DNA from: Intestinibacillus massiliensis
Lineage (GTDB): Bacteria > Bacillota > Clostridia > Oscillospirales > Butyricicoccaceae
DNA: 64,000 nucleotides
Reading direction: 5' to 3'
Assembly (NCBI GenBank): GCA_029267335.1
Contig: JAJUJC010000006.1
Coordinates: forward strand, 1-64,000
In this document: piece after piece, positions 45,256-49,881 of the stretch
Position numbering within the stretch: the stretch's first letter is position 1
Layout: each line of letters opens with the position of its first letter
Notes under the pieces: model-generated
What the model was told of the DNA's origin: nothing
The model's database searches: none
The model's input: the letters and a program-made list of their open reading frames with translations, nothing else
Position numbers and translations under genes: made by a program

Positions 45256-45340
45256 CCTCTACGCAGCGTAGGTTGCCTTTTGCCCCGCGATACGGTATGC
45301 TGTTTTCACAAAGAAAACACCGAAAAGGAAGGAATCCCGT

Positions 45341-45925
45341 ATGACAAACTATGTAACCGGCAGCACTATCAAGGCGCTGCGCGAGGGCAAGGGCTTCACA
45401 CAAAAGCAGCTTGCCGAGCAGCTTGCGGTCAGCGACAAGACCGTGTCCAAATGGGAGACACAAAAGGGTCTGCCCGACATCACGCTGATCGAGCCGCTTG
45501 CGCAGGCGCTCGGCGTGTCCGTCGCGGAGCTGCTCTCGGGCGACTGCCGTATCAACCGCAACCGCTCCGCCAACCTGATGCGCGGCCATTTCTATGTCTG
45601 TCCCATCTGCGGCAACGCGATCTATGCCACCGGCGAGGGCGCGTTCAGCTGCTGCGGCGTGACGCTGCCGCCGCTCGAGACCGAAGAGGCGGACGCCGCC
45701 CACACGCTGCACGTCGAGCAGATCGAGCATGAATACTATCTTTCGATGGAGCACCCGATGAGCAAAACGCACTATATTTCCTTCTTCGCCTATGTCACCG
45801 GCGGCAGGATGCAGCTGCTCAAGCTCTACCCCGAGCAGAACCCCGAGGGACGCTTCCCGGTGTCTGGTCACGGCATGCTTTATGCCTACTGTAACCGCCA
45901 CGGGTTTCTGGGTGTGCGAATCTAA
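45341..45925 (+). CDS. XRE regulator fused to desulfoferrodoxin-like superoxide reductase
   Basis: 194 aa, three modules. Residues 5-65 are an XRE/Cro helix-turn-helix (TIKALREGKGFTQKQLAEQL). Residues 84-112 are a desulforedoxin domain with Cys87, Cys90, Cys104 and Cys105, the CxxC...CC iron site. Residues about 120-194 are a superoxide reductase domain: His138 (EHPM), His144 (THY), Cys184 and His187 (YCNRHG) plus His124 or His130 as the remaining ligand. This is the HTH-Dx-SOR architecture. It is either a redox-sensing repressor or a bifunctional enzyme. The Lys next to the first His in classic enzymes is absent. Confidence 0.8.
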   Translation: MTNYVTGSTIKALREGKGFTQKQLAEQLAVSDKTVSKWETQKGLPDITLIEPLAQALGVSVAELLSGDCRINRNRSANLMRGHFYVCPICGNAIYATGEGAFSCCGVTLPPLETEEADAAHTLHVEQIEHEYYLSMEHPMSKTHYISFFAYVTGGRMQLLKLYPEQNPEGRFPVSGHGMLYAYCNRHGFLGVRI

Positions 45926-46000: not shown

Positions 46001-46044
46001 TGAAGTACACCGTAACGGTGCAACTATTATTCAAAGAGGTATTT

Positions 46045-46320
46045 ATGTACAACGACAAGATCATCGTCTGCAAGGATTGCGGGCAGGAATTCACCTTTAC
46101 CGCGCGTGAGCAGGAATTCTTCGCGGAAAAAGGCTTCACCAACGAACCGCAGCGCTGCAAGTCCTGCCGCGACGCTCGCAAGCAGAACTCTCGTGGCAAT
46201 GGCGGCGGACGCCAGATGTTCGAGGCAGTCTGCGCTTCCTGTGGCAAGACCTGCCGCGTTCCGTTCGAGCCGCGCAACGACCGTCCGGTTTACTGCAGCG
46301 ATTGTTTCAGCAAGAGATAA
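46045..46320 (+). CDS. Small protein with two CxxC zinc knuckles
   Basis: 91 aa. N-terminal CKDCGQEFTF near residue 9 with CKSC near 38 makes one zinc ribbon (zf-trcl type); C-terminal CASCGKTCRVPFEP near 63 with CSDC near 84 makes a second, of the kind with VPFxP before RPVYC. Such proteins are common in Firmicutes and have no assigned role, though nucleic-acid binding is often proposed. The start is the ATG at 46045 after AAAGAGG. Confidence 0.75.
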   Translation: MYNDKIIVCKDCGQEFTFTAREQEFFAEKGFTNEPQRCKSCRDARKQNSRGNGGGRQMFEAVCASCGKTCRVPFEPRNDRPVYCSDCFSKR

Positions 46321-46418: not shown

Positions 46419-48128
46419 TCATTCACGGGCATCCGCGCCGCGTCGCGCCTTGAGATACGCCTTGGCAAAATCCTTGACCCCCTCCTGATTCTGGATGCGC
46501 ACGACCGCATAGAATACCTCAGGCGCAGGCAGCTTCGGCAGCCATGCGTAGTAGCCCGGCAGCCATTCGGTCGGACTGTAATTTTCCTTCGCGCGATAGA
46601 GATTTTTAAAGCCGTAGCAGCTATTGAGATGCTCATACACAAATTGCAGCAGCTTTTCGATACCGTTTGCACGTTCGCCCTCGCGCACAATATTCGCCAG
46701 CGGCGCAATGCCCAGACTCACCGTGCGCACGCCCTCCTGTTTAAACACATGAAAGGCTTCATACATGATTTTCTCCGTGATGCCGCCCGGCGCATCGTGC
46801 GAGCGCCGCGTGATGTCCGCCATGTAGCCCGCGCCGCCGTCAAAGGGGGAATACACATTATAGCCGTAGAGATGCCCCTGTGCATCGCATGCATAAAAAT
46901 ACCGTCTGTCAAGCGGGCGTTCCAGACCGAGCGTCCCCATCGTAAAGGTGAGCAGACCGCTTTTCTTTTCGGACAGCCACTCCTGCGTGATGCGCTCCAT
47001 CGCCGCTTCGATGCCGGGGTCGCGCGCCTCATTCGGCTTATATTCCCGCACGATCAGACCCGCTTTGGTGGCATGGTTGATATTCATACGCATTTTCGCG
47101 CCTTTTTTGCCCGCAATATCATAGTTCTGCACATCAAACCGTGCTTCTTCTCCGCATTTCACCGTGCCGAAGCCCTGTTTGCGGTATTCATCCACAAATT
47201 GTCCTGTAATACCGAGAAACACAACCTTATGATTGCTCTTCTGACAAAAATCCTTCCACTCCGCGAGCACGGCGGAAAAATCCTCGGGCGCGCAGATCGG
47301 GTCGCCGTTGACGATGACCGTGCTGCCCACCACGCCGTAAGGAATGACGCCCTCTGCACATTTGCTGAAATAAAGCAGCTTATCATCTTCCAGTGTTAAG
47401 TATGAGGATGCATTTTGTCCATACCGGAGTACGATCTCCCGCGCACGCTGCATCGCATGCTCTGTCCAAAAAAAGTGCTCGATCCACGGACGGAACGAAT
47501 ACAGTAGCGCGAGCACGATGCACACCCATGTGAACCCGAACATAAAATTTTCAAACCGTACATTCGGGAATCCCACAGCATTGCGATTGGTCGTCCCGAG
47601 CAGGATATTGCATGCTTCTTTCATGCTCTCCCATAGCAGCACGCGGTCAGGTGCCGCGGCAAGCTGCGTTTTGAGCACATGATAACCGATGCCCGCATTG
47701 AGCACGATCGCCGCGACGGCAGGGATGAGCAGCGCGATGCCGCGCTTGACCGAACTTTTTTCCGACGGACAACAGAAATCCCCATGCAGCACGAGCAAAA
47801 CACACAGGCAGATTGCTTCAAGCGCCGCAATCACCGAAAACATGGTCAGGTGCGGCGGCAGCAGATGCCGGATCAGATTGAGCAGCAGCAGGACAACGGT
47901 CACACGCCACGCCATACGTTTGCGCTGATATAAATGGTACAAGGCGATGAGCAGTACGACCGCAAAAACGCGCGAAGTCATCGCTTTCATTGTCAGCAGA
48001 TGCATTAAAAAGCCAGACAACCGCGCGCCGGGAAAGAAACTCGCGGCGAGGGTGAGCAGCGCGAGCACGCCCAACAGACCAATCAGAATATTTTCCGTCA
48101 CGATCCGACGACGGTAGATTCGCTCCAT
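46419..48128 (-). CDS. MprF-like phosphatidylglycerol lysyltransferase C-terminal protein (DUF2156)
   Basis: 569 aa. Residues about 10-215 hold several membrane segments. The C-terminal half is a double GNAT domain of the MprF/LPG-synthase type: LLYFSKCAEGVIPYGVVGS near 260, GDPICAPEDFSAVL near 283, LTFTMGTLGLERPLDRR near 403 and NINHATKAGL near 358. MprF transfers lysine or alanine from tRNA to phosphatidylglycerol and lowers surface negative charge. The flippase half of full MprF is shorter here, so the product is a shortened relative. Terminators flank it. Confidence 0.75.
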   Translation of the reverse strand: MERIYRRRIVTENILIGLLGVLALLTLAASFFPGARLSGFLMHLLTMKAMTSRVFAVVLLIALYHLYQRKRMAWRVTVVLLLLNLIRHLLPPHLTMFSVIAALEAICLCVLLVLHGDFCCPSEKSSVKRGIALLIPAVAAIVLNAGIGYHVLKTQLAAAPDRVLLWESMKEACNILLGTTNRNAVGFPNVRFENFMFGFTWVCIVLALLYSFRPWIEHFFWTEHAMQRAREIVLRYGQNASSYLTLEDDKLLYFSKCAEGVIPYGVVGSTVIVNGDPICAPEDFSAVLAEWKDFCQKSNHKVVFLGITGQFVDEYRKQGFGTVKCGEEARFDVQNYDIAGKKGAKMRMNINHATKAGLIVREYKPNEARDPGIEAAMERITQEWLSEKKSGLLTFTMGTLGLERPLDRRYFYACDAQGHLYGYNVYSPFDGGAGYMADITRRSHDAPGGITEKIMYEAFHVFKQEGVRTVSLGIAPLANIVREGERANGIEKLLQFVYEHLNSCYGFKNLYRAKENYSPTEWLPGYYAWLPKLPAPEVFYAVVRIQNQEGVKDFAKAYLKARRGADARE

Positions 48129-48316: not shown

Positions 48317-48865
48317 TTAACCGAAGTAGCGCTTCAGCAGGCCCTCAAAGCCGCAGCCGTGACGGGCTTCGTCCTTCGCCATCTCATGAACGGTGTCATG
48401 GATCGCGTCAAGATTCAGCTTCTTTGCGAGGGTAGCGAGTTCCTTCTTGCCTGCGGTGGCGCCGTTCTCGGCTGCAACACGCATCTCAAGGTTCTTCTTG
48501 GTAGAGGAGGTTACGACCTCACCCAGCAGCTCCGCAAACTTGGCAGCGTGCTCTGCCTCTTCGTAAGCAGCCTGCTGATAGAATGCGCCGATTTCCGGAT
48601 AGCCTTCACGGATTGCCTGACGGCTCATTGCCAGATACATGCCGACTTCGGTGCACTCGCCTTCGAAGTTCGCGCGCAGACCCTTGATGACTTCTTCGTC
48701 GCAGCCCTGTGCAACGCCTACACGGTGCTCGTCAGCCCAAACCAGACCTGCATCGGCAGCCTGCTCCTGGAACTTAGATGCGGGAGCGTGGCAGATCGGA
48801 CACTCAGCCGGAGCTGCGTCGCCCTCGTGAACATAACCGCAAATGGTGCAAACAAACTTCTTCAT
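48317..48865 (-). CDS. Reverse rubrerythrin
   Basis: 182 aa, rubredoxin domain first ([20 protein letters not shown] near 5-24) and four-helix di-iron domain after, the reverse of classic rubrerythrin. Iron ligands are in [18 protein letters not shown] and [15 protein letters not shown], then [12 protein letters not shown] near the end. Such proteins reduce hydrogen peroxide or oxygen in clostridia. An Rrf2 regulator lies 52 bp upstream on the same strand. Confidence 0.92.
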
Positions 48866-48917: not shown

Positions 48918-49316
48918 TTAGGTGAACCGGTCCATAGTCGCGGCATACAGCTCCTTGCGCAGCATTGCATTGACCGAACCGAACACCTTTTGGAAGCCAC
49001 ATTCGCTCTTGTGCGCGACGCGCGTGCAATCAAATTCATTGCTCAAGCAATGATTGATCGCGATCGGACCGTCGATCGACTCGATGATCTCGCCCAGACT
49101 GATGGTATCCGGTGTACGATTTAAAATATAACCGCCGCTGACACCTTTAAAGGACTGAATGAGATCCGCCTGAATAAGCTTCCGCAGAATCTTGAGTGCG
49201 AAACGCTGCGTGACGCCGGTCTGCTCGGAAATTTCCTTCGCGCTGAGCCTGTGCCCCGCGGATGCCAGACAGTACACCACGCGAATCGCATAGTCGGCTT
49301 CGTGTGTAATTCTCAT
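48918..49316 (-). CDS. Rrf2 family regulator with a three-cysteine cluster
   Basis: 132 aa. Winged helix near 1-60 (ITHEADYAIRVVYCLAS, then TGVTQRFALKILRKL and GVSGGYILNR) and the cluster NHCLSNEFDC...SEC (C-x6-C-x8-C, near residues 93-109), like the iron-sulfur site of IscR/NsrR members. It is likely an oxygen, iron or NO sensor and may control the downstream rubrerythrin. It has its own strong promoter. Confidence 0.88.
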   Translation of the reverse strand: MRITHEADYAIRVVYCLASAGHRLSAKEISEQTGVTQRFALKILRKLIQADLIQSFKGVSGGYILNRTPDTISLGEIIESIDGPIAINHCLSNEFDCTRVAHKSECGFQKVFGSVNAMLRKELYAATMDRFT

Positions 49317-49559: not shown

Positions 49560-49644
49560 GCGAGTGTGCTGGAACTGGTAGACAGGCACGTTTGAGGGGC
49601 GTGTGTCGCACGACGTACGGGTTCAAGTCCCGTCACTCGCACCA
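49560..49644 (+). tRNA. tRNA-Leu(GAG)
   Basis: Acceptor GCGAGTG/CACTCGC with encoded CCA. The anticodon stem CACGT/GCGTG has loop TTGAGGG, so the anticodon is GAG. A long variable arm (class II) is present. It is first of three leucine tRNAs. Confidence 0.92.
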
Positions 49645-49668
49645 TTTTCTTTTTTGACAATCGGATAT

Positions 49669-49754
49669 GCAGATGTGGCGGAATGGCAGACGCGCTAGCT
49701 TCAGGTGCTAGTGTTCGCAAGGACGTGGGGGTTCAAGTCCCCCCATCTGCACCA
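49669..49754 (+). tRNA. tRNA-Leu(CAG), plus-strand copy
   Basis: Acceptor GCAGATG/CATCTGC with encoded CCA; anticodon loop TTCAGGT reads CAG. An identical copy lies inverted at 50896-50981. Confidence 0.95.
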
Positions 49755-49788
49755 AAATAAAAGATACTCAAGAGAGTATCTTTTATTT
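49755..49788 (+). terminator. A/T-rich hairpin between two tRNA genes
   Basis: AAATAAAAGATACTC/GAGTATCTTTTATTT, a perfect 15-bp stem with an AAGA loop. It looks like a terminator or processing site between the second and third tRNA. Confidence 0.6.
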
Positions 49789-49794
49789 CTATCT

Positions 49795-49881
49795 GCCGGT
49801 GTGATGGAATTGGTAGACGTAGTGGACTCAAAATCCACCGCTGGCGACAGCGTACCGGTTCGAGTCCGGTCACCGGCACCA
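49795..49881 (+). tRNA. tRNA-Leu(CAA)
   Basis: Acceptor GCCGGTG/CACCGGC with CCA; anticodon stem GTGGA/TCCAC, loop CTCAAAA, anticodon CAA. The long variable arm marks class II. Confidence 0.93.

Follow-up and report, generated by a model that had tools for sequence, protein, structure and literature searches.

The window, a stretch of 64,000 nucleotides from Intestinibacillus massiliensis, carries on its forward strand a gene (45341-45925, ATG start) in which a helix-turn-helix (HTH) domain of the Cro/CI type is followed by a desulforedoxin-like (Dx) metal site and a superoxide reductase (SOR) domain. It is preceded by a conserved palindrome and a predicted promoter, and the features of the locus are:

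45257-45275 (+): conserved operator motif CTCTACGCAGCGTAGGTTG, with the palindrome CTACG-CAG-CGTAG at 45259-45271, conserved upstream of orthologues
45273-45278 (+): predicted -35 element TTGCCT, of which the TTG is conserved and the ACA half is at chance level
45296-45301 (+): predicted -10 element TATGCT, 17 bp past the -35 element, a spacer length found in 104 of 126 promoters
near 45308 (+): predicted transcription start, an inferred position
45325-45332 (+): likely ribosome-binding site AAGGAAGG, read from the sequence
45341-45925 (+): HTH-Dx-SOR gene, 194 aa plus stop, assigned by profile searches, phmmer, an AlphaFold2 model and structure comparison
45359-45538 (+): Cro/CI-type HTH, residues 7-66 (PF01381 in a Pfam search, E 3.8e-13; 2r1j, Z 12.3)
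45587-45670 (+): desulforedoxin-like metal site, residues 83-110, with C87, C90, C104 and C105 as CX2C-X13-CC (phmmer, orthologue alignment)
45701-45922 (+): SOR domain, residues 121-194, with predicted iron ligands H121, H138, H144, C184 and H187 (phmmer, alignment, structure comparison)

About 100 bp downstream, a gene on the same strand (46027-46320) encodes a small double zinc-finger protein (PF13451, PF23477), and the neighbours vary in relatives. The minus strand then carries a gene similar to the C-terminal part of MprF, the lysylphosphatidylglycerol synthetase (46419-48128; NF033480, 6e-61, under the cut-off), and, 3 kb downstream, a rubrerythrin gene with an N-terminal rubredoxin-like domain that adjoins a gene for an Rrf2-family regulator (48317-48865 / 48918-49316; PF02082, 1.5e-28), which is likely a peroxide-defence pair. 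Three consecutive tRNA-Leu genes follow (49560-49881, +; anticodons gag, cag and caa). No neighbour gene is conserved across 80 loci, the commonest being a MATE-type transporter, recognized by eye, at 7/80. Plasmid collections yielded only two matches (37-43% identity), and in phage collections a single match of 57%, on a faecal scaffold listed as ‘phage’ but unverified and lacking annotation, was taken as no evidence for carriage by phages.

The assignment of the three domains is well above chance and secure. Residues 83-189 align with solved desulfoferrodoxins (D. baarsii SOR, E 6e-10, phmmer) and match the NCBIfam desulfoferrodoxin profile TIGR00320 with E 5e-14, although the score of 52.6 bits falls far below the cut-off of 146.9 for a canonical Dx-SOR protein; the Pfam desulfoferrodoxin profile PF01880 reaches 20.2 bits, slightly under its cut-off of 22.2. 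The AlphaFold2 model, built from 89 sequences with a mean pLDDT of 90.5, consists of five helices followed by beta strands. In comparisons with VIA-align 2, its residues 78-194 match the Treponema pallidum SOR (1y07; Z 15.0, rmsd 1.8 over 114 residues) and further solved SORs (1dfx, Z 13.9; 1vzg, Z 13.7), and residues 2-68 match the P22 c2 repressor 2r1j. The initial annotation had recognized the HTH, desulforedoxin and SOR parts in one protein of 194 aa, which the profiles, phmmer and the model bear out, and it had also named the class correctly: the order of an N-terminal HTH before a Dx-SOR module on a single chain is that of the HTH-Dx-SOR class, named from sequence in SORGOdb in 2011 for 19 proteins (PMC3116461). 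The passages of that paper on the class hold no operator, target or biochemistry, and the Dx spacing given there is X15, in contrast to X13 here.

With desulfoferrodoxins, or 2Fe-SORs (D. baarsii 2ji1, 1vzg; TIGR00320), the protein shares the fold, the five iron ligands and a Cys4 site preceding the SOR domain; it differs from them by the added HTH, the X13 spacing, the missed TIGR00320 cut-off, a shorter stretch between the first two His (16 residues as against 19) and the absence of Glu-Lys before the first of these. The Cro/CI fold of its HTH and the conserved palindrome at its own promoter are those of a Cro/CI-type autoregulator. P22 c2 and lambda CI, which are XRE autoregulators of this type, likewise combine the HTH fold with a palindromic operator beside the -35 element, but here a putatively metal-binding SOR domain takes the place of the usual C-terminal domain.

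Ligand positions were taken from an alignment of 128 orthologues, later extended to 167. Four of the five SOR ligands had been described as clear; the alignment places all five, namely four His and one Cys, the fifth being H121, which is conserved in 115/116 close relatives. The full set, HHHCH, is found in 95 of these 116, and another 19 have Asp at position 187. The sampling somewhat favours H138 and H144, since some of the sequences came from a scan that used an HPM...H motif, a bias from which the whole-genome protein searches are free. By parsimony on a quick tree, the close group replaced H187 by Asp six times, each in a separate lineage; the residue otherwise changed once to Leu and once to Gly, both among distant members, and one Asp became Ser. 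This recurrent replacement by another metal-binding residue looks, at the level of sequence, like tuning of the site rather than decay. One clade, which includes Roseburia porci, has both metal sites altered, with His in place of Dx Cys105 and Asp in place of SOR H187 (L124, with Ser instead of Asp at 187, L125, L132, L135, L153, L154, L156, L157 and L159-L162). As the two changes fall mostly in this one clade, a tree-aware test of a link between them can attain no significance.

The Cys site is CX2C-X13-CC in 128/128 sequences, so that the four Cys of the desulforedoxin motif noted in the initial annotation are present but not with the canonical CX2C-X15-CC spacing, as given in SORGOdb (PMC3116461) and also present in L194, the canonical SOR encoded in the same genome. 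That annotation had further noted the absence of the Lys beside the first His, and this held across the family: residue 120, the position of the catalytic Lys, is Ala in this protein, with Glu, Asp, Ala or others in relatives, and the whole Glu-Lys pair is missing, with Ala-Ala-His here as compared with EKH in L194. In classic SORs this Lys speeds the capture of superoxide. Its absence throughout the family fits a regulator in which the Cys site, with zinc or iron, would be structural, while the SOR domain would dimerize or bind another ligand, without any superoxide chemistry. The near-invariance of H121, H138, H144 and C184 in the close group instead fits a metal site that is in use, as does the fact that H187 changes almost only to Asp, also a metal ligand, and did so six separate times.

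In the survey of Clostridia that the initial annotation had called for, a HTH-Dx-SOR protein was detected in 75 of 391 sampled genomes (E <= 1e-30), and the architecture is therefore not rare, as it had been called. A canonical SOR is also encoded in 53 of the 75 carriers, as compared with 175 of the 316 other genomes (Fisher p 0.02, a value that ignores relatedness), and the genome of the window is among those with both (L194). With the catalytic Lys missing and a canonical SOR in the same genome, superoxide scavenging may already be covered. The canonical SOR, in this genome and in the 53 carriers, speaks against a role mainly as an enzyme, in which a slow SOR would be held at a constant level by simple negative feedback through the HTH, with no redox signal. 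Such a role would agree with the full ligand set, with the match of the fold to solved SORs and with the close relatives, where no other target is seen; we consider it unlikely, also in view of the promoter described next, in which the operator lies beside a poor -35 element and resembles an activator site more than a repressor site.

The upstream regions of the orthologues have the motif ACTCTACGnnnCGTAGGTTG in common. CTACG-N3-CGTAG occurs with <=2 mismatches at 119/128 orthologous promoters, where about 8.5 are expected from shuffled sequences, and in 121/126 the base at its centre is A or T. The palindrome adjoins the TTG of the -35 element, and operator, TTG and -10 element lie at fixed distances from each other, the spacer being exactly 17 bp in most promoters; the three bases of the ACA half have frequencies of 0.19, 0.24 and 0.26. 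Given the -10 element at 45296-45301, the operator is centred near -43. The motif is also conserved in Collinsella and Treponema. A simple scan calls the palindrome terminator-like. That it forms a hairpin in RNA, or terminates the upstream gene, instead of being a protein site we regard as very improbable: the sequence is conserved and not the base pairing, there being no covariation, the distance from the -10 element is fixed, the upstream genes are unrelated among loci, and an Rfam search gave no match. The covariation in question, between symmetric positions of the operator half-sites, did not exceed that of shuffles. Residue 32 of the recognition helix is the top protein column by mutual information with operator base 2, a link that is unsupported on independent pairs of the tree.

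In its position and in the weak -35 element, the arrangement is similar to that of activator-dependent promoters, of which lambda PRM, activated by lambda CI, is an example. Because the operator adjoins a -35 element that keeps only its TTG, its placement leans modestly, by analogy with lambda CI at PRM, towards activation rather than repression. A second, perfect inverted repeat, TGTTTTC-N5-GAAAACA, spans 45301-45319 at the predicted transcription start and is absent from the orthologous promoters that were read.

When the organism's own genome (2.2 Mb) was scanned with sequence patterns, the exact palindrome was found once, at the HTH-Dx-SOR gene. By bit score, the operator in the window reaches 28.5 and the next best site 10.6. 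A longer motif with up to 3 mismatches allowed occurs at ten other places, as compared with 28 for a reversed control. Across the 391 Clostridia genomes a strict pattern gave 7 matches, all ahead of orthologues, and a looser pattern, applied to the 80 genomes with close relatives, gave 36 matches, all ahead of HTH-Dx-SOR genes. A scripted reading of 34 of these 36 loci led into a HTH-Dx-SOR ORF in 32/34, one of these 32 reaching it through a flavin-reductase-like gene (L291). The script missed a Collinsella HTH-Dx-SOR gene whose recognition helix starts with Thr instead of Ser (L281; cf. L063) and a broken copy that is split over two contigs (L296, in G031), and the last two matches are at a paralogue in G457 and at a site that agrees in position with the gene of L091. 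An exact palindrome (L044, 1501-1513) also occurs in G019, a genome without a detected HTH-Dx-SOR gene, about 75 bp upstream of a short HTH fragment.

As all 36 matches stand ahead of HTH-Dx-SOR genes, its own gene is probably the only one that the protein controls in this lineage. A transcription factor with several targets, in its own genome as well, reached through degenerate or differently built sites and with self-control as one role among others, seems rather unlikely here: a second exact site is absent from the genome, the reversed control outnumbers the relaxed matches and the matches in close relatives all belong to HTH-Dx-SOR genes. What speaks for it comes from distant relatives, in which the same operator and promoter precede other genes, as described below.

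The best reading, with a probability of about 0.5, is that of an autoregulated, probably redox-sensitive iron protein of the SOR type. In the proposed model, a dimer of the N-terminal HTH would bind CTACG-N3-CGTAG just upstream of its own -35 element, the reaction of superoxide or peroxide at the SOR iron, or else an alteration of the Cys site, would affect DNA binding, and the changed binding would set the level of the protein itself. The output would probably be the chemistry of the iron protein itself, made available when needed, since the only visible target in this lineage is the gene itself. Domains, ligands, operator, spacing and the uniqueness of the operator can be read directly from the DNA, and from these we strongly infer that the protein binds its own promoter site; the dimer, the direction of control, the iron content, the redox response and catalysis are predictions. 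Against this reading count the missing Lys together with the canonical SOR of the same genome, the lack of covariation and of a tree-supported link between operator and recognition helix, and the loss of SOR ligands in several distant relatives, some of which keep the operator. The initial annotation had asked whether chemistry at the iron is a signal for DNA binding rather than detoxification. A conserved, fixed-spacing and genome-unique operator favours DNA binding at the protein's own promoter, but the opposition was drawn too sharply: with the gene itself as the only visible target and with an intact SOR site, regulation and detoxification are less opposed.

SoxR and similar proteins are iron-based redox regulators, and the SoxR-type site is an Fe-S cluster. 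Oxidation of iron as the signal would be common to both if the sensing model holds, with a predicted mononuclear SOR-type iron in the protein described here. If the SOR iron does govern DNA binding, it would represent an oxidant sensor that works without Fe-S clusters, heme or thiols, and this candidate class would occur in roughly one in five of the sampled Clostridia, many of which are gut anaerobes. The literature searched, which left most subscription journals outside, contained no functional study of a HTH-Dx-SOR protein. What appears to be new is the operator with its specificity, together with the replacements by Asp and the disappearance of the SOR site. As a possible characterized relative, TrtA of Treponema denticola (PMC12724145) was set aside, as it has 104 aa, a HTH only and no reported SOR domain; a text search of the study on Xtr of Clostridioides difficile (PMC13260099) found neither a SOR nor a desulforedoxin domain mentioned. 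The conserved operator supplies a handle that was missing, since a short probe made from it would allow binding, metal content and redox response to be followed together, and it makes the old question of whether the iron protein senses oxidants directly testable.

The wider family was followed in 51 distant relatives of roughly 38-50% identity. All four Dx cysteines are kept in 50 of them, whereas all five SOR ligands are found in only 22/51, with both C184 and H187 lost in several. An operator-type motif with <=3 mismatches is nevertheless present in 37/51 (about 0.4 expected from shuffles), including some in which the SOR site is lost (e.g. L016, L197, L226 and L230). SOR chemistry is thus not needed by all members. 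What persists when the SOR iron site goes is the HTH, the Dx cysteines and, in most cases, the operator, and this persistence argues for a regulatory role independent of this chemistry. The same counts speak for the regulator with a structural Cys site outlined above, which we judge unlikely with the conserved ligands of the close group weighed against them. The family offers a clear case in which to study how an enzyme domain turns into a regulatory domain, as an enzyme-type metal site was repeatedly and independently changed or lost while the DNA-binding part stayed.

Other genes also carry the operator. The same operator and promoter stand ahead of a gene for a CAT-type acetyltransferase in three genomes (L263, with PF00302 at 3.5e-61, L267 and L268), making it a candidate regulon member by sequence, and the operator precedes GIY-YIG-like or DUF2087 genes in three genomes: a small GIY-YIG-like gene in L256, a DUF2087 gene in L265 and, in L280, a GIY-YIG-like gene followed by DUF2087 (PF09860, 2e-27) and HTH-Dx-SOR genes. 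The GIY-YIG label comes from inspection of the sequences, and the one protein searched against Pfam gave no match. A self-controlled iron protein and a regulator may both be true, in different branches of the family. A bolder reading is that of a one-component sensor: superoxide or peroxide would be read by a mononuclear iron of the SOR type, tuned by recurrent His-to-Asp changes of one ligand, which would switch a Cro/CI-type self-activator, while in other lineages the SOR site would have been lost and a protein with the Cys site, together with the operator, would control separate genes; we put this forward tentatively, as a speculative extension that may well prove wrong.

Acetyltransferase domains of the GNAT type are found with the HTH in two arrangements. 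At L261, a HTH-GNAT fusion without a SOR domain has the operator at its own promoter in a genome with no detected HTH-Dx-SOR protein, and related HTH proteins may therefore share the operator. In Faecalibacterium longum (L079, 3001-4143), the HTH-Dx-SOR protein itself is extended by a GNAT acetyltransferase domain to 381 aa.
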